From a virus, in IMG/VR virus record IMGVR_UViG_3300006919_000526, positions 1-22,142 of that record: a stretch of 22,142 bases of DNA, one strand, 5' to 3'. Below the pieces are notes generated by a model. The model ran no database searches, was not told the origin of the DNA, and was given only the letters and a program-made list of their open reading frames with translations. The stretch's first letter is position 1. The number at the start of each line of letters is the position of its first letter. Shown here in pieces: positions 3,677 through 21,996 of the stretch. Made by a program: the position numbers and the translations under genes.

Positions 3677-4399
3677 ATGCCTTTACCCAAGATTTCGACA
3701 CCGACATATGAGTTGGAATTGCCTTCAAATGGAAAATTAATTAAATATCGTCCATTTCTTGTAAAAGAAGAAAAAATTCTTATCATGGCACTGGAGAGTG
3801 AAGATCTTAAACAAATTTCAAATGCAATTAAAACTGTTATATCAGATTGTATTATTACAAGAGGAATTAAAGTAGATCAGTTATCAACTTTTGATATTGA
3901 ATATTTGTTTTTAAATGTTCGTGCAAAATCCGTAGGAGAATCTGTAGAAGTAAGTGTAACATGTCCAGATGATGGAGAAACACAATTACAAGTTGAAATT
4001 GATATTGATTTAATTAAGGTTCAAAAGAATCCTAATCATAGTAATATTATTAAATTGGATGATAATCTTTCGGTTAAAATGAAATATCCATCTTTAAATC
4101 AATTTGTTGAAAGTAATTTTGAAGTTGATAATAAAAATGAACAAGTTGATAAGTCTATTCAAGTGATAGCATCTTGCATTGGTCAAGTATTTACTGATGA
4201 AGAATCTTGGGATGCTTCTGATTGTAGTAAGAAAGAATTGAATGATTTCATCGAGCAAATGAATACCAAACAATTTAAGAAAATTGAAGAATTCTTTAAC
4301 ACGATGCCAAAATTATCACATACAATTAATGTGAAGAATCCAAAGACAGGTGTGGAGTCAGAAGTTGTATTGGAAGGGTTAGCAAGTTTTTTCAGTTAG
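3677..4399 (+). CDS. 26: Baseplate hub assembly protein gp26 (zero-frame product)
   Basis: The 240-aa product fits the T4 gp26 family (T4_baseplate, PF12322), a factor needed to assemble the central hub. It begins MPLPKISTPTYELELPSNGK and continues YRPFLVKEEKILIMALESED, the characteristic opening of this family. Next comes a helical region with CIITRGIKVDQLSTFDIEYL and then a small beta domain (VSVTCPDDGETQLQVEIDID) with a proline-glycine turn. T4 gp26 is about 200 aa, so this one is slightly longer. The last codons before the stop contain a T TTT TTC heptamer that permits a -1 slip into a 62-codon downstream frame. The gene therefore probably makes two proteins, 240 and 301 aa, in the manner of tail assembly chaperones. 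It follows the gp54-like gene after 32 bases with its own late-type box. Confidence 0.75.
   Translation: MPLPKISTPTYELELPSNGKLIKYRPFLVKEEKILIMALESEDLKQISNAIKTVISDCIITRGIKVDQLSTFDIEYLFLNVRAKSVGESVEVSVTCPDDGETQLQVEIDIDLIKVQKNPNHSNIIKLDDNLSVKMKYPSLNQFVESNFEVDNKNEQVDKSIQVIASCIGQVFTDEESWDASDCSKKELNDFIEQMNTKQFKKIEEFFNTMPKLSHTINVKNPKTGVESEVVLEGLASFFS
4387..4393 (+). promoter_or_regulatory. Candidate programmed -1 ribosomal frameshift site
   Basis: In the gp26 frame the heptamer reads T TTT TTC, the canonical X XXY YYZ slippery form, two codons before the gp26 stop (TAG 4397-4399). A -1 slip leaves both tRNAs paired in the first two positions and continues with CAG (4393-4395) into an open frame to TAG at 4579-4581. 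The new frame has no ATG before 4489. I see no convincing downstream stem-loop or pseudoknot, and no obvious Shine-Dalgarno stimulator at the usual distance upstream. Confidence 0.65.
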
Positions 4400-4581
4400 C
4401 GCTGGCTCATGAGAGTTTGGAAAATTATTACAAAACAAACTTTGCCTTGATTCAGCACCATAAATATTCATTGACGGAACTAGAAAATATGATACCTTGG
4501 GAAAGAGAAATATATGTTTCTCTTTTGCAACAATATATTGAGGAAGAAAATTTAAAACAGCAAAAACAGAGTGGTATTTAG
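4393..4581 (+). CDS. 62-codon -1-frame extension of gp26, in the position of T4 gene 51
   Basis: This open frame continues from the gp26 slippery site and encodes a well-formed, charged helical peptide: QLALAHESLENYYKTNFALI, QHHKYSLTELENMIPWEREI, YVSLLQQYIEEENLKQQKQS, GI. The SLTELENM-PWERE-YVSLL-EEE pattern looks selected rather than random. No standard start with a ribosome-binding site exists near its beginning: the only ATG (4489) would give a 30-residue fragment, and TTG 4417 is the nearest alternative. Expression as a gp26 fusion of 239+62 = 301 aa by -1 frameshifting is the simplest reading. In T4, gene 51 (hub assembly) directly follows gene 26, so this extension may be the functional counterpart, although 62 aa is far shorter than T4 gp51. 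It ends 11 bases inside the next gene's GTG start. Confidence 0.65.
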   Translation, partial: QLALAHESLENYYKTNFALIQHHKYSLTELENMIPWEREIYVSLLQQYIEEENLKQQKQSGI

Positions 4582-6340
4582 TAGTCAAAGTTTTACGGCA
4601 CCTACTTTAGATAAAAAACCAAAGTTGGGGAAGAAAATGATTTCTTCTTCAGTTTTTCGTGGTGCCTTTAAATCTATTGGAAAATCGACTACTATCAAAA
4701 TTCCTAAAGGAATGCAAATAGGGGCAAGTAAGTCTTATGTTGATCCAAGTTATTTAAGAAAAGAAGAAAGCACGCCAATTGAACAAACATTAGTAGAAAC
4801 AAACAATATTCTTATAGAAATACAAAATCAGTTAGCAACTGATTTTGCTTATAGGATTGCAAAAGAGAAAGAAGATATACAAAAAATAAAAATTACATCT
4901 GATAAGGAAAAAAAGAGTAGGGCAGAAGCAGGTGTAGAAAGTGTAAAAAAAATTGGTGGTTTTGTTAAAAATCAAGTTGATAAAGTTACTACTCCTGTAA
5001 AAGGATTTTTTCAAAAAATACTTGACTTTTTTGGTGCCATTATTACTGGATTTGTAGTTAATAAGGCGATTGATTGGTTAACAAAACCAGGTAATGCTGA
5101 AAAAATAGCGGGGATATTTACTTTTATTGGGAAACATTGGAAACCAATTCTTGCTGTTATTGGCGGTTTTCTTTTAACTAATGTTGTATTAAAAATTTAT
5201 CGATTATATAAACTTATCCGTGGAGCACTGAGACTTATTGGTATTGGTAGACGTGGTGCTGGTGCTGGTGCTGGTGATGCTATAAGGAGAGGTGGTTTAA
5301 TTAGAAATGCTGCCGGTGGTAGAAGAGGTGTTAATGTTGAGATGGAAAGAATTACCAGAGCAAAACCTGGTTCTGGTGGACTACTTCATGAGAGAGTAGA
5401 TGTATATAAGAGAACTAAAAATCCAGTAGCAAAGGCAGTTCAAAAAGCAGAAGTATTATCAAAGTTAGCTGGTAAAAAGGTAGTAAAAGCACTTGGTGCA
5501 AAAGGTCTCATGAAATTTTTGAGACCAGTATTTAAAAGAGTACCTGTATTTGGAGCACTAATTGATTTTGCCGTGTCTCTTGCTCTTGGAGAGCCAATAG
5601 GTAGGGCAGCAGCAAAGTCGGTTGGTATGTTGCTTGGTAGTGCTTTAGGAACATTAATTCCAATTCCTGGTGTTGGAACATTTGCTGGGGGTTTACTTGG
5701 TGACTTTGTTGGTGGTAAAATTTACGATGCAATTGTTGGAGAAAAACAGGAAGATCCTTTAAAAATGAATAGAGGTGGTATTGTTCCTGGACCCAATATT
5801 AATAAGGACATTGTGCCAATACTTGCTACTCCTGGAGAGGCTGTTGTCCCTAAAAAAGAAACAGCAAGATTTTCGGGATTTTTATCTGATATTATTAGTA
5901 ATGGTGGAGAATTATTTGAGAAAATGTTTCTCTCATTGAGAAAACAAGAATATAATAATAATATATTTAAAGAAGCGAATGAAAAATTTGAAGAATCTAT
6001 AGAAGTGCTTTCCAAGTACTTTAAAAAAGAAACATTAAAAGCGCTTGATCCCAACTTATATAATAAATTATATGGTGCCATTGGAGGACCACGAGATTCA
6101 ATGGCAAATAAATCTTTGAATCCTGTGAAGAAAAATACTTCAAACATGTCAATGAGATCTATGAATAGGTCTCCATCGATTACAATGTTGCCTCCGATAA
6201 GTGCTGCCACTAATTTATCTGCTTCTAAAGTAAATTCAACACCCTCTGGTGGAGATTCGATAATTGCACTTGATGCAGAGGATAATGATAATTTTTATGT
6301 TTCATACTACACTGCATCTTCTCTTGGATTGGGAGTGTAA
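4571..6340 (+). CDS. Tape-measure-like tail/hub protein with hydrophobic helices
   Basis: The 589-aa product is close in length to the T4 tail-length determinant gp29 (590 aa), but I see no direct sequence match. Features in order: a charged helical, coiled-coil-like part (about 65-135); a hydrophobic helix at 153-164 (FFGAIITGFVVN); a second at about 181-213 (KHWKPILAVIGGFLLTNVVL); a basic, glycine-rich linker (IGRRGAGAGAGDAIRRGG); a long glycine/alanine hydrophobic stretch at 327-390; then RGGIVPGP (401-408) and ILATPGEAVVPKK. The last motif closely resembles the GGxVPG...VPAxLTPGEfV segment that recurs in phage tape-measure proteins. The C-terminus is helical and charged. GTG 4571 gives the longest form, but it has no nearby ribosome-binding site. 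ATG 4637, preceded by GGGGAAG, is an equally good start (567 aa). The N-terminal half is related to that of the next gene. Confidence 0.6.
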   Translation: MVFSSQSFTAPTLDKKPKLGKKMISSSVFRGAFKSIGKSTTIKIPKGMQIGASKSYVDPSYLRKEESTPIEQTLVETNNILIEIQNQLATDFAYRIAKEKEDIQKIKITSDKEKKSRAEAGVESVKKIGGFVKNQVDKVTTPVKGFFQKILDFFGAIITGFVVNKAIDWLTKPGNAEKIAGIFTFIGKHWKPILAVIGGFLLTNVVLKIYRLYKLIRGALRLIGIGRRGAGAGAGDAIRRGGLIRNAAGGRRGVNVEMERITRAKPGSGGLLHERVDVYKRTKNPVAKAVQKAEVLSKLAGKKVVKALGAKGLMKFLRPVFKRVPVFGALIDFAVSLALGEPIGRAAAKSVGMLLGSALGTLIPIPGVGTFAGGLLGDFVGGKIYDAIVGEKQEDPLKMNRGGIVPGPNINKDIVPILATPGEAVVPKKETARFSGFLSDIISNGGELFEKMFLSLRKQEYNNNIFKEANEKFEESIEVLSKYFKKETLKALDPNLYNKLYGAIGGPRDSMANKSLNPVKKNTSNMSMRSMNRSPSITMLPPISAATNLSASKVNSTPSGGDSIIALDAEDNDNFYVSYYTASSLGLGV

Positions 6341-6343
6341 TAA

Positions 6344-7855
6344 ATGGAAAGCGTCGAGAATTTAAAACTTAATGTTAGTAATATAAAAAGTGTATTGACT
6401 ACATCAAATAAAAATTTGAAACAGTTACAAATTAAAAAGACAAGTATATTAAGGAAACAAATACAAGGCGAAAAAAGATTTGAAAGAGAGAAAAAAATAG
6501 AGACCCCTAGAATTCCTGGATCCGAACTTGCCAAAGGAATTGTAAGAAAAATTGCAAGTCCTGTTATGGGAGTATTTGATAGAATAATGGGATTTTTCAG
6601 TGCTATATTACTTGGATTTGTAGTTAATAATTTGCCAAAAATAATTGCAGAGTTGACTCCTATTTTTGAAACTATGAAACCAATATATGAAGGTTTTATG
6701 AAAGGATTGGGATTTGTGATAAATGGAATAGGATTTTTGTATAATTCTGTTGCGCCATTATTTTTTAATGAAAATGAAGCACGAAATAATATTAAAACTG
6801 CAGAAGATACACTCAAATTAATTGATAAGGATTTAGATGAAGGTTTTGAATTGTCAAAAGATAATGATAATACTGAATCTGAGACAACTCAAACTCAAGA
6901 AGTAAATAATTATACGGATCCTTCTACGCCTGTCATTCAACAACAAACTCAAGTAAAACCGGAAATACAAAAAAGAAATACTGGTGGTTTAGTAAACAAA
7001 AGACAAAATGCGAATCTTCCACCAAGAAGAAATAATTATGAAAATGCAAAAACAAATCCTTTAAGGTTATTTGGAAAGGTAACAGAGCAAAACAGCGAAA
7101 ATGTAAATCTATTTGAAAAAAATAATGATAAATTAGAAGAAATTGCAAAATTATTAAAATCATCAGAAAGGAAAAAATCTATTACTACTAATGATAATAA
7201 ACCGGCAACTGATAATAAAGTTGTAATTAGTGATGGTAAAATTACCGGACAAATTGTTGGAAGAGTTGGGCATAGTGGGTATACGATCCCAGAAGGTCCA
7301 GAGGGTTCTCACATTCACATTGAAACTGGAAGGGGGGAAGGAGGAGCGGGAGGAGAGATTCCTTCATCAGTTTTGAGTAATATTATTGTTGGTGGTAAAC
7401 CATTGTCTGATTGGCCTCAAACTTCAACAATTGGTGATGGTAGAGGGCACCGTGGATTGGATTATGGTATTCCGAAGGGGACACCAATTACTCTTAAAGG
7501 GGGATTGAAACTTGTTGATTATGATACGGTTAGAGATCCAAGTGGATATGGAAATAATATAGTTATTGTGGATAAATATGGAAATTATTATTTAATTGCT
7601 CACTTATCCAGTGGACCAGAGAAATCTAAAGATGGTGAAGGTGGGCAGTTAAATAATAGTATAACATCTAGACAAATAATTCCTTTAAGTGACGAAATTA
7701 AGAAACAAATTATTATAGTTCCTGTAGAAAAGTTAGTGCCTATTGAAACTCCAGTTCCAGTTACTGGCAATTCTACAAAGGTCTATAGACCTGGTGGAGG
7801 AAAAGATTATGGTGGACGACCTTTAAATCCCTGGCAAACGAGAGGACCTCAATAA
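6344..7855 (+). CDS. Tail/hub protein with coiled coil, hydrophobic helix and permuted M23-type peptidase domain
   Basis: The 503-aa product has three parts. Residues 1-65 are a charged coiled coil. Residues 65-160 hold a hydrophobic region, with FFSAILLGFVVNN at 84-96, paralogous to the preceding protein. After a low-complexity N/Q/T/E linker, residues 302-425 hold the residues of an M23 (LytM/lysostaphin) zinc endopeptidase. H369-x3-D373 (HRGLD) and H420 (YLIAHLSS) have the spacing expected for the zinc pair and catalytic histidine. The third element, H-x-H (H323 and H325 in EGPEGSHIHIE), lies before them instead of after. It is preceded by GQIVGRVGHSG, which normally leads into HLHFE at the C-terminal end of the fold. 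The likely role is local cutting of host peptidoglycan cross-links during injection, carried on the tail tip. The start has GGGAG upstream. The stop shares one base with the gp27 start (TAATG). Confidence 0.7.
   Translation: MESVENLKLNVSNIKSVLTTSNKNLKQLQIKKTSILRKQIQGEKRFEREKKIETPRIPGSELAKGIVRKIASPVMGVFDRIMGFFSAILLGFVVNNLPKIIAELTPIFETMKPIYEGFMKGLGFVINGIGFLYNSVAPLFFNENEARNNIKTAEDTLKLIDKDLDEGFELSKDNDNTESETTQTQEVNNYTDPSTPVIQQQTQVKPEIQKRNTGGLVNKRQNANLPPRRNNYENAKTNPLRLFGKVTEQNSENVNLFEKNNDKLEEIAKLLKSSERKKSITTNDNKPATDNKVVISDGKITGQIVGRVGHSGYTIPEGPEGSHIHIETGRGEGGAGGEIPSSVLSNIIVGGKPLSDWPQTSTIGDGRGHRGLDYGIPKGTPITLKGGLKLVDYDTVRDPSGYGNNIVIVDKYGNYYLIAHLSSGPEKSKDGEGGQLNNSITSRQIIPLSDEIKKQIIIVPVEKLVPIETPVPVTGNSTKVYRPGGGKDYGGRPLNPWQTRGPQ
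7247..7620 (+). other. M23-type domain with apparently circularly permuted motif order
   Basis: Motifs in order: G-Q-x-x-G-x-V-G-x-S-G (residues 302-312), H323-x-H325, H369-x3-D373, G-T-P-I, GYGNNIVIVDKYG, H420. A canonical M23 domain reads HxxxD, GTPV, GYG..v.i.h..g, YaHls, Gq.iG.vG.tG, HLHFE. All elements are present once each, but the last block has moved to the front, joined by a linker of about 43 residues. Confidence 0.65.
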
Positions 7856-9171
7856 TGAATGCAGCACAAGCAAGTATATTTGAAGAATTTATAATTACAT
7901 CTGATGACGGAAGTAATTCTGTAAATCTTTATGATGGTCAGATAAGAATTATTAGTTTTGATTACTTTGAATCTATATTATCACCGTGCATTACTGGCAC
8001 AATTATAATTTCTAGTGGATCTGATGCTGCTGTATCGAGGGAAGATCCCCAAAATAGAGTAGGAAGTATATTATCGCATTTACCTCTTCGTGCAGGATCA
8101 ATAATATCGACAAAAATACGCACAAAAAATGGAGTATTGAATTTTTCTGGAGATGATTATAAAGTTTTATATGTGACAAAGGTTGTTCCTCTAATCCAAG
8201 ATTCTAATTCAGAAACAATATCTATAAAGTTTACATCTAAAATTGGATGGTTAAATGAAACTACCAGAATTACACGATCATTTAATGGAAAAATTACCAA
8301 ATCTGTAGAATCTATATTAACAAAAGAATTGGGTATAAAATCTAATAAAATTTTTATTGAAGAAGCAATCAATAGTCTCACATTTACTGGAATGAGAAAG
8401 AGACCATTTGATTTATTAATAGGACTTTTATTAAAACAATCTATACCCCCCAATACAGTAAATCCTGGTTATTTTTGTTATGAAACAAAGAGTGGATTTA
8501 ATTATGTTTCTATTGATACTTTGATAAATCGAGAGGAATTTAAAATTCCTTATGAATATAATGGCAAAAATATATCATCTTTTGAAACTAAAGATGACAG
8601 TGCTGATTTTAAGGTAGCAACATTTTCGACAGAAAAAGATCAAGATTTGTTGATGCAAATTAGATCTGGAATGTATGCTACAAAAAATTTATTTTTCAAT
8701 CCACTAACTTTTAAATTTACCGAAATTGACATATCTGTGATAACAAATTCAAAGTTTTCTTCATTGGGTAAAAAACAAAAACTTCCAAGAATTTTAGATC
8801 AAGATTTCAATGAGGGGAAAAAATATCATCGAGTTCAGTCTGCTATCCTAGATATAGGAAGTAATACAGAAGAAAAAACTCAAAATAATAATCCAGAACT
8901 TTACTATGCAGCAGGAACTACTAGATATAATGCATTATTTTCTCAAATTCATAATGTAACAATTCCATCAAATATTTTACTTGAAGCTGGAGATTCGATT
9001 ATTTTAAATATTGAAAGTATATCTAATGATAAGGTGCAAGGTGTTGATCAAGTTAAAAGTGGTAAATATATAATTAGGGGAATAAGGCATCATTTTACTC
9101 CTAAAGTATCTACTACTGGATTAAAACTTATTCGCGATTCTTATGGATTACATTTTAGTAAGAGCAAATAA
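7855..9171 (+). CDS. 27: Baseplate hub protein gp27-like
   Basis: The 438-aa product fits the gp27 hub family, which forms the trimeric (pseudo-sixfold) ring that links the tail tube to the central spike. Supporting features are the beta-rich N-terminus with LYDGQIRIISFDYFESILSP and TGTIIISSGSD, the alternating charged/hydrophobic strands of the first tube-like domain, and the C-terminal second tube-like domain: SNILLEAGDSIILNIESISN, then VKSGKYIIRGIRHHFTPKV and STTGLKLIRDSYG. This last block is the usual ending of gp27 and gpD-type hub proteins. T4 gp27 is 391 aa, so the length is compatible. It overlaps the previous stop by one base and has GAGAGGA upstream, giving good translation coupling. 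The next gene is the OB-fold partner that in T4 binds gp27. Confidence 0.8.
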   Translation: MNAAQASIFEEFIITSDDGSNSVNLYDGQIRIISFDYFESILSPCITGTIIISSGSDAAVSREDPQNRVGSILSHLPLRAGSIISTKIRTKNGVLNFSGDDYKVLYVTKVVPLIQDSNSETISIKFTSKIGWLNETTRITRSFNGKITKSVESILTKELGIKSNKIFIEEAINSLTFTGMRKRPFDLLIGLLLKQSIPPNTVNPGYFCYETKSGFNYVSIDTLINREEFKIPYEYNGKNISSFETKDDSADFKVATFSTEKDQDLLMQIRSGMYATKNLFFNPLTFKFTEIDISVITNSKFSSLGKKQKLPRILDQDFNEGKKYHRVQSAILDIGSNTEEKTQNNNPELYYAAGTTRYNALFSQIHNVTIPSNILLEAGDSIILNIESISNDKVQGVDQVKSGKYIIRGIRHHFTPKVSTTGLKLIRDSYGLHFSKSK

Positions 9172-9683
9172 TGGAAGGACTAAATTCGGCACAATTTAAT
9201 TTTTATGGTTTGGGGACAAATGAGTGGATAGGTATGATATTGCCCTTTGAATCCCAAAAAGATCAATCTACGGGAAAGAAAGGATTTGGTTTTCGTTATC
9301 GAGTGGCTATTATGGGTTATCATCCACTTGATAATAGTATAACTGATGAAGAAATTACTTATGCCATAACTGGATTCTCACCTGCTGATGGCGGCGGCGG
9401 TGGATCGTGTTATAAAACATCTAAATTGACTCAAGGAGATGTTGTTTTGGGTAAATTTTTAGATGGTGATAATAAACAATTGCCAATTATATTGCATGTT
9501 TTATGTAGAACGTCTGATATACAATATGGATATGGATCTGGTAGATTTGATCCAAAAACTGGATTTGTTGGAAGTAGAAAAAAGACATCATTAACAAAAA
9601 ATCAAGAAACATGTGAACAAAAAGGAATATGCACGCCAAGACTAATACCTGGGAATGGGAAACAAGGTAGAACATCTCCATAA
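9171..9683 (+). CDS. 5: Stand-alone gp5-type OB-fold hub protein
   Basis: The 170-aa product corresponds to the N-terminal OB domain of T4 gp5, which docks the spike onto gp27. Diagnostic segments are RYRVAIMGYHPLDNSITDEE with ITYAITGFSPADGGGGG, and LTQGDVVLGKFLDGDNKQLP with IILHVL. This is the gp5/VgrG pattern of an exposed glycine-rich loop followed by G-D-x-V-x-x-x-F-x-D-G-D-x-x-x-P-I-I. After residue 110 only a short glycine- and lysine-rich tail remains, with no lysozyme and no beta-helix. T4 gp5 is 575 aa, so this is the OB part only. A separate spike-like protein is encoded two genes downstream. The start overlaps the gp27 stop by one base, with only AAGAG upstream. The gene symbol refers to domain equivalence, not full-length orthology. 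Confidence 0.7.
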   Translation: MEGLNSAQFNFYGLGTNEWIGMILPFESQKDQSTGKKGFGFRYRVAIMGYHPLDNSITDEEITYAITGFSPADGGGGGSCYKTSKLTQGDVVLGKFLDGDNKQLPIILHVLCRTSDIQYGYGSGRFDPKTGFVGSRKKTSLTKNQETCEQKGICTPRLIPGNGKQGRTSP

Positions 9684-9686
9684 ATA
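9680..9686 (+). promoter_or_regulatory. Possible late promoter box before the 496-aa gene
   Basis: ATAAATA overlaps the stop of the OB-fold gene, but it is only 13 bases ahead of the next ATG (9700). A transcript starting there would have almost no leader. The match may be chance in AT-rich sequence, although box-at-stop placement is also seen before gp26. Confidence 0.25.
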
Positions 9687-9699
9687 ATTCAAAAAATAT

Positions 9700-11190
9700 A
9701 TGTCAGTTTGTGCAGATCCTATCAGTAATACATCTGGTCATGTAGTAATTCTTCCAGATCCTTGTAAAGATAATACCTTTGCGAAGGCAGAAGCATATCT
9801 GGAAAACTTTTTTGCTTTGGTAACAAAACCACTTGATTCATCCTCAAGTTTAGATCAAGAATTGAAAAAAACCGTGAAACTTCTTTCTATTGGTATGAAA
9901 GGTTTTGTAAATTCTGTTGTGGGAAGATTTCAAGATGAATTGATTGAAAGAATAAAAGGTGGACTTGCAGGACTGGAAAATGCAGTTAGATCTTCATATA
10001 AAGGAAATGAATTATTCAAAGCTCTTGATGAATTAGCAAAAAAACAAGGCGCTCAAATTGATCCAGTTGATAATCTGTTTAAGGCACTTGCTTGTTTGGC
10101 AAATAAGGTTACGGATGCCGCAGAAAAAATATTCACTGATTTGCTATCACAAGCAGTAAAAAATGTATTGAATGTCCCTATTTGTGCAGTTGAGCAAATA
10201 TTGGGTGCATTTACTAATAAGATGATAGATATCATTGAGAGCACCGTTTCACCAATATTGGAACCGATTAAGAATGCATTAGAATTTGTTTTTGATGTAA
10301 GAGATTTTCTTGTTGGTGTAGTGAAAACATTGAGAAAGGTTGAAAATCTTTTAAATTGTAATGAGAAGAAAAAGTGTCCTCCATCTACAAAATATAAAAT
10401 CAATCAAGGATTGTTGAGAGATAGGGGAGAAGGAGAGCAGAAAGACGCCTTTGATAGAATATTTGCAAAAGGAGCACTGTCAAGAGGTGCTGCAAATCTT
10501 GCAAATGATTTTGAAAATCAATATGGATCATGGTCTATATTTGGCGAGACCCTAGAAAATGCTGATCCAAATTCGGGTTGTTATACTGGAAATGTTGTCA
10601 GTTGTGGCACACCAAATGTAGAATTTTTTGGTGGTGATGGTGCAGGAGCATTTGGAAGAGTAATACTTGGCAATATTATTAATGAAGTTGATAGTGAAGG
10701 TGTAATTGATTCTGCACAAAGGACTGCAAGTATTGTTGGTGTAGAAATTCAAGATCCCGGAAGTGGATATACAACTCCACCAATTGTATCTTTTACTGAT
10801 GCATGTGATAAGGGATATGGTGCATATGGCAGAGCAAACATAGATACAAATCCTAGTTCTCCAACTTATGGTCAAGTTACTTCTATAAGTATTATTAGTA
10901 AAGGAGAAAATTACCCAACGGAAGGTCTTATTGAAGATCCATTATACATTGAAGATATTGTAATTGAAAATCCCGGATCTGGATACTCTGAAGGTGATTC
11001 TGCTCAAGGGATTAAATTAACAATTCGTGATGGTCAAATTGTTGACACTGAAATTGAAAACTTAGGATACAATGGATTGCCTGACCTAAATATCAACAGT
11101 AACACTGGGTTTGGAGCTGTGCTAAGACCAATAATGGCAGTTGTTCCGCCACAGAGAGAAGTTATTCAAGTTATAGATTGTGTGAGGTAA
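9700..11190 (+). CDS. Baseplate/hub structural protein with helical N-half and PGSGY beta repeats
   Basis: The 496-aa product is not recognised by name. Residues 20-230 are largely alpha-helical with long amphipathic stretches (TVKLLSIGMKGFVNSVVGRF, LSQAVKNVLNVPICAVEQIL) and scattered cysteines (C4, and a NCNEKKKCPPS cluster). From about 340 the sequence turns to beta repeats with the motif I-x-(N/D)-P-G-S-G-Y: VEIQDPGSGYTTPPIVSF near 345-363, ISIISKGENYPTEG, IEDIVIENPGSGYSEGD near 417-431, and a degenerate TEIENLGYNGLP. Such repeats also occur in other phage adhesin-like virion proteins. It lies exactly where T4 gp5 would have its lysozyme, between the OB-fold and spike genes, so it probably belongs to the tail tip. 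There is no clear Shine-Dalgarno sequence before ATG 9700, so its initiation may be weak. Confidence 0.75.
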   Translation: MSVCADPISNTSGHVVILPDPCKDNTFAKAEAYLENFFALVTKPLDSSSSLDQELKKTVKLLSIGMKGFVNSVVGRFQDELIERIKGGLAGLENAVRSSYKGNELFKALDELAKKQGAQIDPVDNLFKALACLANKVTDAAEKIFTDLLSQAVKNVLNVPICAVEQILGAFTNKMIDIIESTVSPILEPIKNALEFVFDVRDFLVGVVKTLRKVENLLNCNEKKKCPPSTKYKINQGLLRDRGEGEQKDAFDRIFAKGALSRGAANLANDFENQYGSWSIFGETLENADPNSGCYTGNVVSCGTPNVEFFGGDGAGAFGRVILGNIINEVDSEGVIDSAQRTASIVGVEIQDPGSGYTTPPIVSFTDACDKGYGAYGRANIDTNPSSPTYGQVTSISIISKGENYPTEGLIEDPLYIEDIVIENPGSGYSEGDSAQGIKLTIRDGQIVDTEIENLGYNGLPDLNINSNTGFGAVLRPIMAVVPPQREVIQVIDCVR

Positions 11191-15465: not shown

Positions 15466-18400
15466 ATGGCAAAATATTTAAGCGGAAGAGTAAAAAGAAA
15501 AGAACAATCCAAAGTAGCAATTTCTACGGATCGCTACCGTTATCTTGGACTTAATGAAACTGAACCAAATTTAGGTGATCCTCTTTCCGGGACATTTCAA
15601 GACACTCCACCTGCTGGTACAAGATATCAAATAGTTTCCGTTGAAGGATATCCTGGAGAAAGATATTGGATTCCTGTTGAGGGTGGAATCATTCCAGGAT
15701 CTATTACTGTCTATGATGAATCTACTAAACTTGTTGGTAATATTAGTAGTATAACTCAACTCAATTTTATTGGTGCTGCTATAACTGCAACATCAGATTC
15801 ATTTAAAGAAACAACATTAACTTTAAGTGGCAATCATAGTTTTTCTGTTGGTTTAGGTATTACACAGGGTAACAATAATGTTACTGGTTTTGTAAAATAT
15901 TCTACAACAACAGTTGGATATGTTACTGTCACTAATGTTGAGGGATCGTTTGCTCAAAATGCAAGTGATGAAATTTATGAGGATGGAGTAACCACTGGAT
16001 TAACCGTAGATTCTTTATCTTCGATTATTGAGACTGGAGTTAAAGCAGACATAACTGTTTCTCCACAATTCTTTTCTGAAAATAAAGAATTAATATTTAA
16101 TGATAATGGGGAATTTAATGGTGCTAGTGTTTATTGGGATAAGTCTAATACACGATTAGGTATTAATAGTAGTGATCCTGCACATACTTTAGATGTTACA
16201 GGAGATATTGATGTAAGTGGTAGCATTAAAGTTGGAGCAACTATCTATGATAGTGATGGTGATCCAGGAACTGACGGGCAAATTCTTGCGAAGGGAGCAG
16301 GAAATCCTGGGACAATAGATTGGGTTCGTTTGGAATCTATTATTACTGGTGCTGGTGGAACAATTGGTAATATTCAGTTTCATGGCACTACTGGATTGGT
16401 TCAGGGTGATGATGAATTAAATTTCAATCCTTATAATGAGTTTATTGGTATTGGTACTAATGATCCGGCACAGAAGTTTCAAGTTGGAGTAGATGGAAAA
16501 AGATATACAACAAAGAAATTAACTTTAGATAGTGCTATAGGTGATAATTATAGTGCAGGAGATTTAGTTCAATTGAGAACGGCAGCTTCTCCATTTGGAC
16601 TGCAGGATATATTTGGAACTCTTGTATATGATGTGCCTTCTGCCGGAACAGCACTAACGGTTAGAAATAGTAATTACGAAACAAAAGGAACTCAATGGAG
16701 TTCTTTTACTGGTAATGGGTATAGAATATACTTTAATAACACTGTTTTAGCTACTGGCAGGTATATAACTTCTGTTGGAAATGATGCCACCATACCAGAA
16801 ACTACCTACGAGGGAGATGATGTCTTTGTAGTTACTAGCACTGGTGATGTTGGTATTGGCACAGTAAATCCAAGGACAAAGAGAGATTCTACGACAGTTA
16901 ATTTAGATGTTGCCGGTGATGTTTTATTTAAAGGTGATAATAACTATGATCTTCACTGGGACAAGAGTGCTTATAGTTTAATACTCGATGATAATGCCAA
17001 GTTTGCCGCAGGCACTGACTCTGATTTAGAAATATATCATAATGGCACTACTGGATATATTGAAAACAACACCGGACATTTTTATATTAGAAATGCTGGG
17101 TCAAATATTAATTCAGACATTTATATTCAGGCAAGAAGTGGAGAAAATAGTATTATTTGTAACGATGATGCTGGCATAGATCTTTATTATAATAATAGTA
17201 GAAAAGCATATACAGATATCAGTGGTTTTCGTATAGATGGTAGATTATATGTTGATCACAGCACATCAGAGTTTCATGGAGATGTAAGATTTGATGGAAA
17301 TACTGCTGGTCGTGATATTTACTTTGATGTGAGTGAAAACTCTTTATATGCTTATGATAATGCAGAATTTCGTGTAGGGACAACTGCCGACCTACGAATT
17401 TACCATGATTCTACACTCACCAAAACATATGTTGGGTTAGATTCTAGTGGTGGTAAGACATTAGACTTCGTTTCTTTTGATAATAATCTTGGCATAAGCA
17501 CTGCCATGAGAGTGACACATGTTAATAGTGGAGATAATTATAATACTTATGTAAATCTATACTATAATGGAGTTGAAAAATTAGAAGTAACGGAAAATGG
17601 TATTGATGTAACGGGTCATGTAGAAACCGATACATTAAATGTTTCTTCTGCATCAACTATTTCTAATATTAAGATTGGTGGTCTTGGTGGAAATCTTTCT
17701 AATACAATAGATACAACTTCTGGAAATTTAATTATTAATGCTCAAGGTGGTTCTAATACAATTGTTACTGATAGCGAACTGCAAATTAATAGTACTGAAC
17801 CAACCACTGGTAATAATGATGGTGCTTTAATTGTTGCTGGTGGTGTTCATATCAGAAGTGATTTGATATTATGTAATGATCCTGATATCGTGGATACTAT
17901 TGACCCCGTTAAAGTTGGTATTGCAACAAGAACTCCTGTTGATAGACTTCAAATAGGATCACGGAACGAATTTATACCAGTTGTAAATACAAATACTGGA
18001 GATCTTGCTGCTCCTGTTGGTGGTTTGGGTACCAATGAAATTACTGGAATCACAATATCTGGATCTGGTATTGTATTGGGACAAGAAGTAAAATCTGGAT
18101 TCCATACAGTTGGCACGAAGATTTCAAATATTGTTGGAAATACAATTATTGTTGATACTTATGCAACTAATACTGTAGCACAAACTAATGTTCCTATTAC
18201 TTTTGGTATAAGAAATGATAGTGCTGTTATTGCTATTGGACAAACCGGTTCTGTTGGAATAGGCACTACAAGTGCCGAAGCAAAATTAGATGTTCGTGGT
18301 AATTTACAAGTTACTGGAATTGCATCAGTCAGTGAAACTATAAAAGTTGGTGCGGCTGTAACGATTTCATCAAGTGGAGATACATTCATATCTGGTATCA

Positions 18401-21400
18401 CATCTGTAGGCACTGGTGTGACCATTACTCCATCTAATGGAGGTATTGCCGTCACCGGAATTATAACAGCAACTGGTGGATTTATTGGCACAGTTAATAG
18501 TAGTGATATTGTTGGTGATATAACAGCAACTAATATTAATGTTACCGAAGAAAGTACTGATGCCGAGTGTAATATAGTTTTTGTAACCGCATCTAATGGA
18601 ATTCTTCCACCAAAAACTAATGCCAACTTAACTTATGATTCAAGTACTGGAAAATTGCAATCTGCTAGTTTTGAGGGTGATGGATCTTTACTGACTGGTG
18701 TTATTGGTGTAGGCACTGGCGTTGAACTTCAATCAAATGGAACTTCGGTTGGAGCTGCAGCAACAATTAATTTTAGTGGAGGATTTAATGTATTACTTTC
18801 TACTTCAAGTGGTGTTGCGACAGTAACTCCAACAGCAACGGATAGAAGTGTTTTCTCTCATTATTCTGATTATGCAAGTCATAGTGAAACATCAAATTAT
18901 GCATACGGTATTGTAGGTATTGCAAACACTTCTTACAATGAAGTAGGAATACTTACTGCAAATTCATCTTCTGCAGATAGTTTTGGATGGTCAGTAGCAA
19001 CCAGTGCTGATGGCAAGACTATTGTTGTTGGAGATCGCTTTGGTGATGGTAATGCAACAGATTCAGGCGCAGTTTATGTCTTTGATCGTGAAGGAAATAC
19101 CTATAGTCAAGTAGGTGTCTTGACAGGTTCTTATTCTACCGATAATTATGATAATTTTGGACAAGCAGTAGCAACCAGTGCCGATGGTAAGACCATTGTT
19201 GTTGGTGCTTTTGATGATGAAACTTCTGGCACTACTGGTTATGGTCTTGTTTATGTTTATGATCGTGTTGGAAATGACTTTAATGAAGTAGCAATTTTAA
19301 CTGGTTCTTATGCCACCGAATCTTTTGATTACTTTGGATGGTCAGTAGCAACCAGTGCCGATGGTAATACTATTATTGTTGGTGCTTATGGTGATGAAAC
19401 TTCTGGCACTACTGGTCATGGTCTTGTTTATGTTTATGATCGTGTTGGAAATGACTTTAATGAAGTAGCAATTTTAACAGCATCTGATCAAGGTGCAGGT
19501 GATTCTTTTGGACAGGATGTTGCATGTAGTGTTGATGGTAAGACTATTGTTGTTGGTGCTGGTGGTCATGACGATCTTTCGGGACATACATCTTCAGGCG
19601 CAGTTTATGTCTTTGATCGTGTTGGAGATGATTTTAATGAAGTAGGAATTTTAACAGCATTTGACAGTAATAATTACTACTTTTTTGGAAATGAAGTAGC
19701 AACTAGTGCTGATGGCAAAACTATTTTTGTTGGTAGAAGTTCTATTTCTGCTAATCAACCTGGTGCTGTTTATGTTTATGATCGTGTTGAAAATGACTTT
19801 AATCAAGTAGGAATTTTAACAGGTTTTTATGCCGATGATGATGATCAATTTGGGATCTCTGTGGCATGTAGTGCCGATGGTAAGACGATTATTGTAGGAG
19901 CTCAAAGTGATGAGTATCCTGGTTCTGGCAATGGTTCTGGTCTCGTTTATGTTTTTAATCGTCAGGGAAACAACTTTAATGAAGTAGGAATTCTCACCGG
20001 ATCTTATGCTTCTAATACTGGTGATTATTTTGGACATTCTGTAGCAACCAGTGCCGATGGTAAGACCATTATCGTTGGTGCTTACAATGATGAGATTAAT
20101 AGTGAACAAGGTCTTGTTTATGTTTTCGATCAAAATGTAAATACAAAATCACTTTTAAGGACTATAGATGAAAAAAATATAATTATAGAATCTAATTTAA
20201 CAGTAAAGGGTGATATTAAAGGAACTGCAGATAATGCCGATAGAAGTATTTTCTCTCATTATTCTGATTATGCAAGTCATAGTGAAACATCAAATGGATC
20301 TTATAATCTTGTAGGTATTGGATCAACTTATATTGAAGTAGGTGCTATAGAACTTGATAATCCTAACTCTAACGATGAATTTGGACACACAGTAGCAACC
20401 AGTGCTGATGGTAAGACCATTATCGTTGGTGCTCCCGATCATGATACTAATTCATTATCAAATGTAGGTGCAGTTTATGTCTTTGATCGTGAAGGAAATA
20501 CTTATAGTCAAGTAGGTTTCTTTACTGGTTCTTATGCTACCAGTAGCAGCGATTATTTTGGACAAGAAATTGCATGTAGTGCCGATGGTAAAACCATAGT
20601 TGTTGGCAACCAATATAGTGAATTACCAGGATCGGAGTCGAATAGTGGACTTGTTTATGTCTTTGATCGTGTTGGAAATGATTTTAATGAAGTCGGTATC
20701 TTAACCGGTTCTTATGCTTCTCAAAATAGTGATAATTTTGGATCGTCAGTAGCAACCAGTGCCGATGGTAAGACTATTGTTGTTGGTGCTCTTCTGGATG
20801 AGAAGGGTGTTGATAGTGTTGATGGCGGAGGTGTAGTTTATGTCTTTGATCGTGTTGGAAATGATTTTAATGAAGTAGGTATTCTAACAGTATCAAGTGG
20901 TGCATTTGTTTTTGATTATTTTGGATATTCTGTAGCAACCAGTGCCGATGGTAAGACTATTGCTGTTGGTGCGTATGGTGATGAAAGTGGCGTAACAGTA
21001 ACTGATGTAGGTGCAATTTATGTCTTTGATCGTGTTGGAAATGATTTTAATCAAGTAGGTATTCTAACAGCATCTTACGATACCGTGCGCTATGACTTTG
21101 GACGCGAAGTAGCAATCAGTGCCGATGGTAAGACTATTATTGGTAGTGCTTATTATGAGTCTGGGACCGGTGATCCTACTAAAGGCACTGTTCATGTCTT
21201 TGATCGTGTTGGAAATGATTTTAATGAAGTAGGTATTCTAACAGCAGGAACTGAATATGCTGATAATCATGATTATTTTGGATGGTCAGTTGCATGTAGT
21301 GCCGATGGTAAGACTATTTTTGTTGGTGCTCCCAATGATGAATATTCATCTACTTTTACTACTGGCATTGTTCATGTTTTTAATCGTCAGGGAAATAACT

Positions 21401-21996
21401 TTAATAAAGTAGGTATTATAACCGGTTCTTATGCTACTAATCTTGCTGATAAATTTGGATACGCAGTGGCATGTAGTGCAGATGGTAAGTCTGTTATTGC
21501 TTCTGCTCTCAATGATGAGATTGGAGGTACTAGTGCTGCCGGTGTCGTTTATGTCTTCGATCAAACAACAGTTGCCAGAGATGCAATTACGGCAACAGAT
21601 ACTGGTGTTTTAATTACCGGAGATCTCAATGTAACTGGTGATATTACTGCATTCTATACTTCTGATGAAAGATTAAAGGATAATATCACTCCAATTGATG
21701 ATCCTTTGGCAAAGGTAATATCAATTAGTGGTAACACATTCGATTGGAATCAAAATTCCAATAAGTCTGGTCATGATGTTGGTGTTATTGCACAAGAAAT
21801 AAAAGAAATTCTGCCAGAAGCTGTTACTGAAAGAGATAATGGGTATCTTGCGGTTGATTATTATAAAGTAATTCCTCTCCTAATTGAGGCAATCAAGGAA
21901 CTTTCTGAAGATAGAAATATCATAACTTCTAAAAACGGAGTTAAGTATCGTTTCGTTGTTGACGATGATGGAAACCTATCAACTGAGAAGGTCTAG
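15466..21996 (+). CDS. Giant tail fibre with two seven-repeat FG-GAP-like propellers and C-terminal S74 chaperone
   Basis: The 2176-aa product begins with a fibre anchor, MAKYLSGRVKRKEQSKVAIS, then YLGLNETEPNLGDPLSG and GYPGERYWIPVEGGIIPGSI. Residues about 220-1120 are fibre beta repeats with GIGTNDPAQKFQV, GDVGIGTVNPRTK, DLEIYHNGTTGYIENNTGHF and SVGIGTTSAEAKLDVRG. Residues 1159-1556 and 1624-2033 each contain seven repeats of about 57 aa of the FG-GAP_2 form: FGWSVATSADGKTIVVGA, a variable loop, GAVYVFDRVGNDFNEVGILT. Each array is preceded by an almost identical DR(S)(V/I)FSHYSDYASHSETSN linker. The C-terminus is a Peptidase_S74 intramolecular chaperone with SDERLKDNI (S2066, K2071) and GHDVGVIAQEIKEILPEAV, which in known fibres trimerises, folds the shaft and cuts itself off before the serine. 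The predicted released piece is 111 aa. Its role is most likely host recognition. Confidence 0.85.
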   Translation: MAKYLSGRVKRKEQSKVAISTDRYRYLGLNETEPNLGDPLSGTFQDTPPAGTRYQIVSVEGYPGERYWIPVEGGIIPGSITVYDESTKLVGNISSITQLNFIGAAITATSDSFKETTLTLSGNHSFSVGLGITQGNNNVTGFVKYSTTTVGYVTVTNVEGSFAQNASDEIYEDGVTTGLTVDSLSSIIETGVKADITVSPQFFSENKELIFNDNGEFNGASVYWDKSNTRLGINSSDPAHTLDVTGDIDVSGSIKVGATIYDSDGDPGTDGQILAKGAGNPGTIDWVRLESIITGAGGTIGNIQFHGTTGLVQGDDELNFNPYNEFIGIGTNDPAQKFQVGVDGKRYTTKKLTLDSAIGDNYSAGDLVQLRTAASPFGLQDIFGTLVYDVPSAGTALTVRNSNYETKGTQWSSFTGNGYRIYFNNTVLATGRYITSVGNDATIPETTYEGDDVFVVTSTGDVGIGTVNPRTKRDSTTVNLDVAGDVLFKGDNNYDLHWDKSAYSLILDDNAKFAAGTDSDLEIYHNGTTGYIENNTGHFYIRNAGSNINSDIYIQARSGENSIICNDDAGIDLYYNNSRKAYTDISGFRIDGRLYVDHSTSEFHGDVRFDGNTAGRDIYFDVSENSLYAYDNAEFRVGTTADLRIYHDSTLTKTYVGLDSSGGKTLDFVSFDNNLGISTAMRVTHVNSGDNYNTYVNLYYNGVEKLEVTENGIDVTGHVETDTLNVSSASTISNIKIGGLGGNLSNTIDTTSGNLIINAQGGSNTIVTDSELQINSTEPTTGNNDGALIVAGGVHIRSDLILCNDPDIVDTIDPVKVGIATRTPVDRLQIGSRNEFIPVVNTNTGDLAAPVGGLGTNEITGITISGSGIVLGQEVKSGFHTVGTKISNIVGNTIIVDTYATNTVAQTNVPITFGIRNDSAVIAIGQTGSVGIGTTSAEAKLDVRGNLQVTGIASVSETIKVGAAVTISSSGDTFISGITSVGTGVTITPSNGGIAVTGIITATGGFIGTVNSSDIVGDITATNINVTEESTDAECNIVFVTASNGILPPKTNANLTYDSSTGKLQSASFEGDGSLLTGVIGVGTGVELQSNGTSVGAAATINFSGGFNVLLSTSSGVATVTPTATDRSVFSHYSDYASHSETSNYAYGIVGIANTSYNEVGILTANSSSADSFGWSVATSADGKTIVVGDRFGDGNATDSGAVYVFDREGNTYSQVGVLTGSYSTDNYDNFGQAVATSADGKTIVVGAFDDETSGTTGYGLVYVYDRVGNDFNEVAILTGSYATESFDYFGWSVATSADGNTIIVGAYGDETSGTTGHGLVYVYDRVGNDFNEVAILTASDQGAGDSFGQDVACSVDGKTIVVGAGGHDDLSGHTSSGAVYVFDRVGDDFNEVGILTAFDSNNYYFFGNEVATSADGKTIFVGRSSISANQPGAVYVYDRVENDFNQVGILTGFYADDDDQFGISVACSADGKTIIVGAQSDEYPGSGNGSGLVYVFNRQGNNFNEVGILTGSYASNTGDYFGHSVATSADGKTIIVGAYNDEINSEQGLVYVFDQNVNTKSLLRTIDEKNIIIESNLTVKGDIKGTADNADRSIFSHYSDYASHSETSNGSYNLVGIGSTYIEVGAIELDNPNSNDEFGHTVATSADGKTIIVGAPDHDTNSLSNVGAVYVFDREGNTYSQVGFFTGSYATSSSDYFGQEIACSADGKTIVVGNQYSELPGSESNSGLVYVFDRVGNDFNEVGILTGSYASQNSDNFGSSVATSADGKTIVVGALLDEKGVDSVDGGGVVYVFDRVGNDFNEVGILTVSSGAFVFDYFGYSVATSADGKTIAVGAYGDESGVTVTDVGAIYVFDRVGNDFNQVGILTASYDTVRYDFGREVAISADGKTIIGSAYYESGTGDPTKGTVHVFDRVGNDFNEVGILTAGTEYADNHDYFGWSVACSADGKTIFVGAPNDEYSSTFTTGIVHVFNRQGNNFNKVGIITGSYATNLADKFGYAVACSADGKSVIASALNDEIGGTSAAGVVYVFDQTTVARDAITATDTGVLITGDLNVTGDITAFYTSDERLKDNITPIDDPLAKVISISGNTFDWNQNSNKSGHDVGVIAQEIKEILPEAVTERDNGYLAVDYYKVIPLLIEAIKELSEDRNIITSKNGVKYRFVVDDDGNLSTEKV
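18841..18897 (+). repeat. 57-bp linker repeat, copy 1
   Basis: It encodes DRSVFSHYSDYASHSETSN immediately before the first propeller array. The copy at 20239-20295 differs by one base (G to A, Val to Ile). The distance between copies is 1398 bases (466 codons), which equals one propeller plus its lead-in. Confidence 0.95.
19216..19301 (+). repeat. 86-bp near-identical blade repeat, copy 1
   Basis: These 86 bases (DETSGTTGYGLVYVYDRVGN and onward) recur at 19393-19478 with one mismatch (T to C, Tyr to His), offset by 177 bases (59 codons, one blade). This indicates a recent duplication or conversion between blades 2 and 3 of the first array. Confidence 0.9.
19393..19478 (+). repeat. 86-bp near-identical blade repeat, copy 2
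   Basis: This is the second copy of the 86-bp segment at 19216-19301, one mismatch apart, located in blade 3 of the first array and running into blade 4. Confidence 0.9.
20239..20295 (+). repeat. 57-bp linker repeat, copy 2
   Basis: This is the second copy of the linker, leading into the second propeller array, with a single base difference from 18841-18897. It marks the left end of the duplicated unit. Confidence 0.95.
20335..21564 (+). repeat. Second array of seven FG-GAP-like blades
   Basis: Seven consecutive repeats are FGHTVATSADGKT, FGQEIACSADGKT, FGSSVATSADGKT, FGYSVATSADGKT, FGREVAISADGKT, FGWSVACSADGKT and FGYAVACSADGKS, the last again ending VYVFDQ. Blade 1 (DREGNTYSQ), blade 6 (NRQGNNFN) and blade 7 (VFDQ) match the same positions of the first array, so the whole propeller was copied rather than individual blades added. 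Confidence 0.85.

Follow-up and report, generated by a model that had tools for sequence, protein, structure and literature searches.

Peptidases of the M23 family are widespread enzymes that cut cell walls; NlpC/P60 enzymes are cysteine peptidases whose fold is unrelated to M23. An M23 review defines the family by H(x)nD and HxH, its two catalytic motifs, and we take the residue roles (zinc ligands and catalytic histidines) from the same review (PMC9662197). In the canonical layout HxxxD comes first, HxH follows, and an extra histidine lies ~30 residues before HxH. A permuted cell-wall peptidase fold has a precedent in the circularly permuted NlpC/P60 enzymes of the LRAT and YaeF types, as set out in PMC6403190. 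For M23, our search of open-licence papers found no permuted form, and the word stem 'permut' does not occur in the main text of the M23 review (PMC9662197). Here we describe, in a stretch of viral DNA of 22,142 nucleotides (the window), a domain that very probably derives from a LytM-type (M23) zinc endopeptidase by natural circular permutation.

The 503-residue protein and its place in the tail block

The domain lies in a 503-aa protein of the tail-hub block (6344–7855, plus strand, from the ORF list), whose homologue Sf-CH8_12 is annotated 'peptidase M23'. The same protein occurs at 14 IMG/VR loci, identical at 13 and with a single change at one. Both M23-defining motifs are present once each in the whole protein: HxH as HIH (323–325; H323 and H325) and HxxxD as HRGLD (369–373; H369 and D373). 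HxH lies ahead of HxxxD, with 44 residues from H325 to H369, and H420 comes last, an arrangement that departs from the canonical layout. GQIVG starts at residue 302 (nucleotide 7247), GTPI at 379 and GYGNN at 401, and AHL occupies 419–421. Of all the histidines in the protein (310, 323, 325, 369, and 420), four of the five are those expected of an M23 domain. In H323-x-H325 (7310–7318, plus strand) the first histidine is presumably catalytic and the second a zinc ligand (PMC9662197); H369-x3-D373 (7448–7462, plus strand) would supply further zinc ligands and H420 (7601–7603, plus strand) a second catalytic histidine. The initial annotation had read each M23 hallmark as occurring once in a rotated order; the motif positions and the crossed profile matches described below confirm this, and a residue count gives the claimed D373-to-H420 distance of 47.

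The neighbouring genes resemble tail genes of cyanophages. Upstream, a 240-aa protein (3677–4399, plus strand) matches the 'baseplate hub' protein Sf-CH8_09 in protein comparison (E 8.8e-103). Downstream, a tail protein assigned by PHROGs to phrog_350 (7855–9171, plus strand) has relatives in ACG-2014f, Sf-CH8, and Syn1 that lie directly downstream of the canonical-M23 gene, and is followed by a gp5-like hub in two ORFs (9171–9683 and 9700–11190; 9171–11190 together, plus strand) that match gp5-like proteins of the same three phages. This hub is split in the window and is a single 645-aa ORF at locus L030. The 503-aa protein itself matches Sf-CH8_12 (phmmer, E 3e-8), and a profile of nine window-type proteins aligns its N-terminal region (residues 1–164; 6344–6835, plus strand) to that of Sf-CH8_12 (hhalign probability 96.4, E 1.2e-9, columns 65–164). 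Against ACG_12 and Syn1_013 the protein gave no match at E 0.01.

A canonical M23 domain occupies the equivalent gene position in each of the five cultured T4-like cyanophages that were read (Sf-CH8, ACG-2014f, Syn1, S-RIM44, and Sf-CH3), where gene order was compared for the first three and position was taken from annotation for the last two; the S-RIM44 annotation gives the canonical-M23 gene, then a hypothetical protein, then the hub. In two of the three cyanophages scanned, Sf-CH8 and ACG-2014f, the protein encoded at this position combines a lysozyme with a canonical M23 (Phage_lysozyme in the case of Sf-CH8_12). The homology to Sf-CH8_12 and the gene order, with baseplate hub, tail protein, and gp5 neighbours, support the earlier placement of the domain on the tail tip. 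It had also been proposed that the domain replaces a missing gp5 lysozyme. The two gp5-like ORFs of the window have no Pfam match to a lysozyme; that the permuted M23 stands in for it is at most plausible.

Two further features of the window were observed. The N-terminal regions of the 503-aa protein and of the 589-aa protein encoded just upstream (4571–6340) seem weakly similar; the 589-aa protein matches the 536-aa homologue of the 503-aa protein at L030 (E 7e-4), and the 503-aa protein matches a 528-aa protein at the same locus (E 5e-4). At 15466–21996 the window encodes a 2176-aa probable tail fibre with many 'FGWSVATSADGKTIVVGA'-type repeats and an SDERLKDNI end, which we take to resemble an intramolecular chaperone.

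Crossed matches to canonical M23 profiles

The Pfam profile PF01551 recognizes only one side of the domain: residues 368–423 match profile positions 2–54 of 96 (E 1.3e-4), and the scores of 22.5 bits for the whole protein and 26.9 bits for the segment do not reach the curated cut-off of 28.7. When the segment was compared with PDB sequences by phmmer, the matches were weak (best whole-sequence E 0.022) and their pieces were crossed. On 5kqb, query residues 71–92 align to chain residues 26–46 and query 8–60 to 93–142; on 3slu, query 72–129 aligns to 243–297 and query 8–33 to 308–328. An HMM built from 10 canonical phage M23 domains gave two crossed matches (E < 0.05) in 15 of 16 permuted proteins. 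With this HMM the first match in Mcat19 is broad (profile 26–102), S-EIVl matches by its HxxxD half only, and the HxH half taken alone gives a weak single-sequence match of 8.8 bits.

Profile–profile comparison gave the same crossed picture. When 13 window-type sequences were compared with the 10 canonical phage M23 domains, query 69–125 aligned to template 13–68 (E 1e-10) and query 2–36 to template 77–106 of 119 (E 7e-7), both E-values being those for one template. As controls, 14 of 14 pieces from the N-terminal part of window-type proteins reached a probability of at most 0.2% against the canonical profile. The crossed order recurred against a second, independent profile, built from 36 distinct canonical sequences of bacteria, over template positions 1–69 (probability 95.1%) and 79–111 (66.3%) of 114. 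For 18 sequences with HxD in place of HxH, the HxxxD half matched two canonical profiles at probabilities of 97.4 and 98.7%, the HxD half matched weakly (11.5 and 47.8%), and the order was again crossed. The two crossed segments together cover one canonical profile, as expected of a circular permutant, and nearly the whole canonical M23 domain is therefore present. About nine canonical positions after the AHL strand are absent in the permuted family, which marks the site of the new opening.

These alignments define two blocks and a joint. Block B (residues ~302–347; 7247–7384, plus strand; end approximate), with GQxIGxVG and HxH, is the canonical C-terminal third, which now comes first; block A (residues ~360–423; 7421–7612, plus strand), with TSxxG, HxxxD, GTPI, GYGN, and AHL, is the canonical N-terminal two thirds. 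The old termini had been thought to be joined by a ~43-residue segment. Much of that segment proved to be M23 sequence at both ends, because the profile pieces cover nearly the whole canonical domain, and the real joint from old C-terminus to old N-terminus comprises at most residues ~348–359 (IVGGKPLSDWPQ; 7385–7420, plus strand; boundaries approximate) and by profile alignment is possibly shorter.

Taken at the level of sequence, the crossed profiles, together with the residue conservation and block exchange described below, give good support to the claim of a natural circular permutant, and we consider it very probable that residues ~302–423 of the 503-aa protein form one. Counting against this reading are the Pfam score below cut-off, the weak HxH and HxD halves, and a degenerate M23 piece in S-TIM61.

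Spread of the permuted order and exchange of the cassette

Homologues at 40–48% identity keep the order. In all 13 window-type sequences, 40–47% identical to the window protein, none of the five catalytic residues varies. When seven Acinetobacter rows are included, H323, H369, D373, and H420 stay unchanged in all 20, and the seven have aspartate in place of H325. The joint also holds a proline (P59 of the aligned segment) whose conservation across 35 permuted sequences reaches 90% or more. The spacing from HxH or HxD to HxxxD is variable, being 38–54 in 16 HxH domains (44 in 12 of them) and 48–69 in 73 HxD domains.

The B–A order was read in the cultured phages S-TIM61, S-TIM54, S-TIM66, Acinetobacter phage Ftm, S-EIVl, Moraxella Mcat19, and P60 (gp33), and the domain of S-TIM5 is 100% identical to that of S-TIM61. 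The initial annotation had proposed to look for homologues in other cyanophages; among these, S-TIM61 and S-TIM66 have the permuted order. The phages that carry the cassette presumably span long non-contractile, contractile, and short tails. The carrier in Ftm is a tape measure protein (TMP_3, E 3e-63), and in relatives of S-EIVl the domain sits in proteins of ~208–263 aa, with one of 449 aa; an S-EIVl-led alignment search of IMG/VR gave 127 relatives, of which 80 were kept. Other searches returned little. With the full-length 503-aa protein, tblastn gave no match in phages at E 1e-5; a profile scan of genome contigs returned 123 stretches that matched the pattern, with no relative among them; a scan of viral contigs with the S-TIM61 domain gave no match; and a search of phages with the S-TIM54 domain returned only S-TIM54 itself and two partial Staphylococcus phage matches. 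Several proteins found with permuted queries have their motifs in canonical order on reading and were set aside: those at loci L102 and L220 and those of MaMV-DC, Corynebacterium phage IME1320_01, Vibrio Yong MS32, Pf-WMP4, G20c, and MT836246.

Across the window and the collected loci, a permuted HMM gave 268 full-length matches (training sequences and repeat fetches included), which reduce to 90 distinct domains, 16 with HxH and 74 with HxD; 89 of the 90 retain HxxxD, which P60 lacks. In a stricter test that used the halves as separate HMMs, 91 distinct domains have the canonical A–B order and 46 the permuted B–A order. We looked for a second, complete canonical M23 domain in the homologues as evidence against a permutation, and none of the 137 distinct domains has both orders. 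At a looser threshold, 92 canonical domains (91 HxH and one unread) compare with 84 permuted domains (68 HxD and 16 HxH), so that no HxD was seen outside the permuted order; the sample is non-random, many canonical rows coming from one bacterial family through similarity in block A. HxD would be a ligand set absent from the canonical-order domains sampled, and the HxD class provides a testable case of a zinc-ligand change tied to chain order. A tree of blocks A and B in a common column order (97 rows, 96 columns) has three order changes and many long branches.

The permuted form looks phage-borne. In a profile search of cyanobacterial genomes at E 1e-12, at least 9 of 386 have a match, one of which spans both blocks with the permuted HxD order (genome G193, locus L202, 1240–1866, a 208-aa ORF); this small protein perhaps lies within a prophage. 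Of the Pseudomonadota genomes, at least 8 of 398 have a match, and among these only the seed Acinetobacter spans both blocks; both genome counts are lower bounds, because at most 10 candidates were scored per cellular genome. The permuted domain is found at seven Acinetobacter genome loci.

The two halves appear to move together. S-TIM61 (L031, 3393–6446, 1017 aa) and S-TIM66 (L114, 1426–4482) encode the same ~1018-aa protein, and nearly all differences between the two lie in the peptidase cassette. Counted over successive 30-column stretches of the alignment, identity is 28–30 of 30 in the flanks and only 10–16 of 30 at residues ~511–680. The divergent stretch brackets the permuted domain of S-TIM61 (529–670), which indicates that both halves were exchanged together as one module. 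The S-TIM61 virion protein also contains Phage_lysozyme2 (E 2e-22), for which P60 gp33 has a match below cut-off. Upstream of the permuted domain, residues 450–484 of S-TIM61 form the degenerate M23 piece (Pfam profile 45–79), which by eye has neither HxxxD nor HxH and is possibly a trace of duplication.

The spread of variants raises the question of activity. P60 gp33 (L117, 7355–7777) carries a permuted domain without the HxxxD histidine and is, from its sequence, possibly inactive, and HxD is present in 74 of 90 permuted domains, as one might expect if the permuted fold had lost catalysis and served as a structural or wall-binding module. We consider this unlikely for the window, since its family keeps every catalytic residue and since a canonical M23 with its motifs stands at the equivalent gene position in the five cultured cyanophages. 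Whether permuted M23 peptidases make up a whole, so far unrecognized class of phage entry enzymes, an exchangeable cassette across tail types that arose perhaps by one permutation event, with HxH changing to HxD alongside the rotation, appears to us evenly balanced.

Predicted fold, mechanism, and known systems

AlphaFold2 models of the window segment have a mean pLDDT of 73.4 and a pTM of 0.73 with 13 sequences (model 1) and of 77.5 and 0.77 with 20 sequences (model 2). In model 2 the predicted strands (add 294 for residue numbers) lie at 10–17 after GQ, 28–34 (SHIHIET), 65–67, 78–81 in HxxxD, 87–90 (PITL), 95–100, 110–115, and 121–129, ending AHLSS, and would fit the expected M23 elements in rotated order. 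Among predicted viral structures, four match model 1 at E ≤ 0.001, namely S-TIM5 (E 9e-8, TMq 0.60), A0A510E7V3_3, P60 (E 4.8e-6, TMq 0.61), and an uncultured tape measure fragment; motif order was read for S-TIM and P60, both of which carry the permuted order. Against the PDB, Foldseek gave no match at E ≤ 0.001 for either model, and no M23 protein was among the best 50 of 277 and 331 matches; VIA-align on the top candidates gave 27 and 31 chains with Z ≥ 2, with no M23 among the matches listed. The best of these, the lectin CV2L (Z 4.4) and Thrombocorticin (Z 4.2), we interpret as sharing a common arrangement of beta strands. Because Foldseek and VIA-align depend on the order of the chain, they can overlook a permutant whose fold has been solved in canonical order only. 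Even so, half of the domain might have matched M23, and the absence of M23 counts against certainty. It does not exclude an M23 fold, the models being of moderate confidence.

Trimers are common among the hub proteins of contractile tails, and the window protein has a short joint between its halves. Both would suit an inter-subunit domain swap, in which the HxH half completes the HxxxD half of the next chain to form shared active sites, and the monomer is not a permutant. We regard this as quite improbable: the monomer alone reaches a pTM of 0.77 in a model of moderate confidence, and the order recurs in carriers for which no common oligomer would be expected, namely a tape measure protein and proteins of ~208–263 aa. 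Two decayed remnants of tandem canonical domains, the end of one copy and the front of another with no shared site, could have left a piece such as that upstream of the permuted block in S-TIM61 through duplication and decay. Such remnants are highly improbable: all five catalytic residues are unchanged throughout the 13 window-type sequences, both orders occur in 0 of 137 distinct domains, S-TIM61 and S-TIM66 differ by an exchange of both halves as a single unit, and a joint proline is at least 90% conserved in 35 sequences, although the distance from HxH or HxD to HxxxD ranges between 38 and 69 in 89 domains.

For a natural circular permutant we propose the following. At the level of sequence, the chain is cut within the loop that separates the AHL and GQxIG strands, and a few residues bridge the old ends, placing the HxH part first and the HxxxD part second. 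The homology to Sf-CH8_12 and the gene order show that the 503-aa protein is the counterpart of the canonical-M23 protein of T4-like cyanophages. The two blocks would pack into a single M23 fold in which H325, H369, and D373 bind zinc and H323 and H420 activate water. During entry, as the tail opens the envelope, the domain would cut peptide bonds of the host cell wall. The permutation would shift the tether points to another loop, which may suit the place of the domain inside the 503-aa protein; a tether through a different loop could turn the groove towards the wall. A natural permutant suggests that the M23 fold may tolerate changed tether points.

Judged by its sequence, the permuted M23 looks like a real natural variant of a familiar enzyme, one that seems not to have been described before and that recurs in several very different phages. 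M23 models of one order half-score or miss this form: at E 0.001 Pfam finds an M23 neither in P60 gp33 nor in the tape measure protein of Ftm. The window domain shares with canonical M23/LytM (PF01551) the SxxGxR-like start, HxxxD, GTPI, GYGN, AHL, GQxIGxxG, and HxH, and nearly all profile positions, but its order is rotated, with the chain opened after AHL and the old ends joined. The M23 proteins of T4-like cyanophages (Sf-CH8_12, ACG-2014f Syn7803C8_12, Syn1_013, S-RIM44, and Sf-CH3) resemble the 503-aa protein in their position upstream of the tail protein and gp5, with protein-level homology in Sf-CH8_12 only, but all five are canonical, and two of the three scanned also carry Phage_lysozyme. 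The B–A order of the window is shared by the virion protein of S-TIM5, S-TIM61, S-TIM66, and S-TIM54, by P60 gp33, by the S-EIVl 'peptidase M23', by the Ftm tape measure protein, and by the Mcat19 tail protein, which differ from the window in their host proteins and, in P60, S-EIVl, Ftm, and Mcat19, in having HxD.
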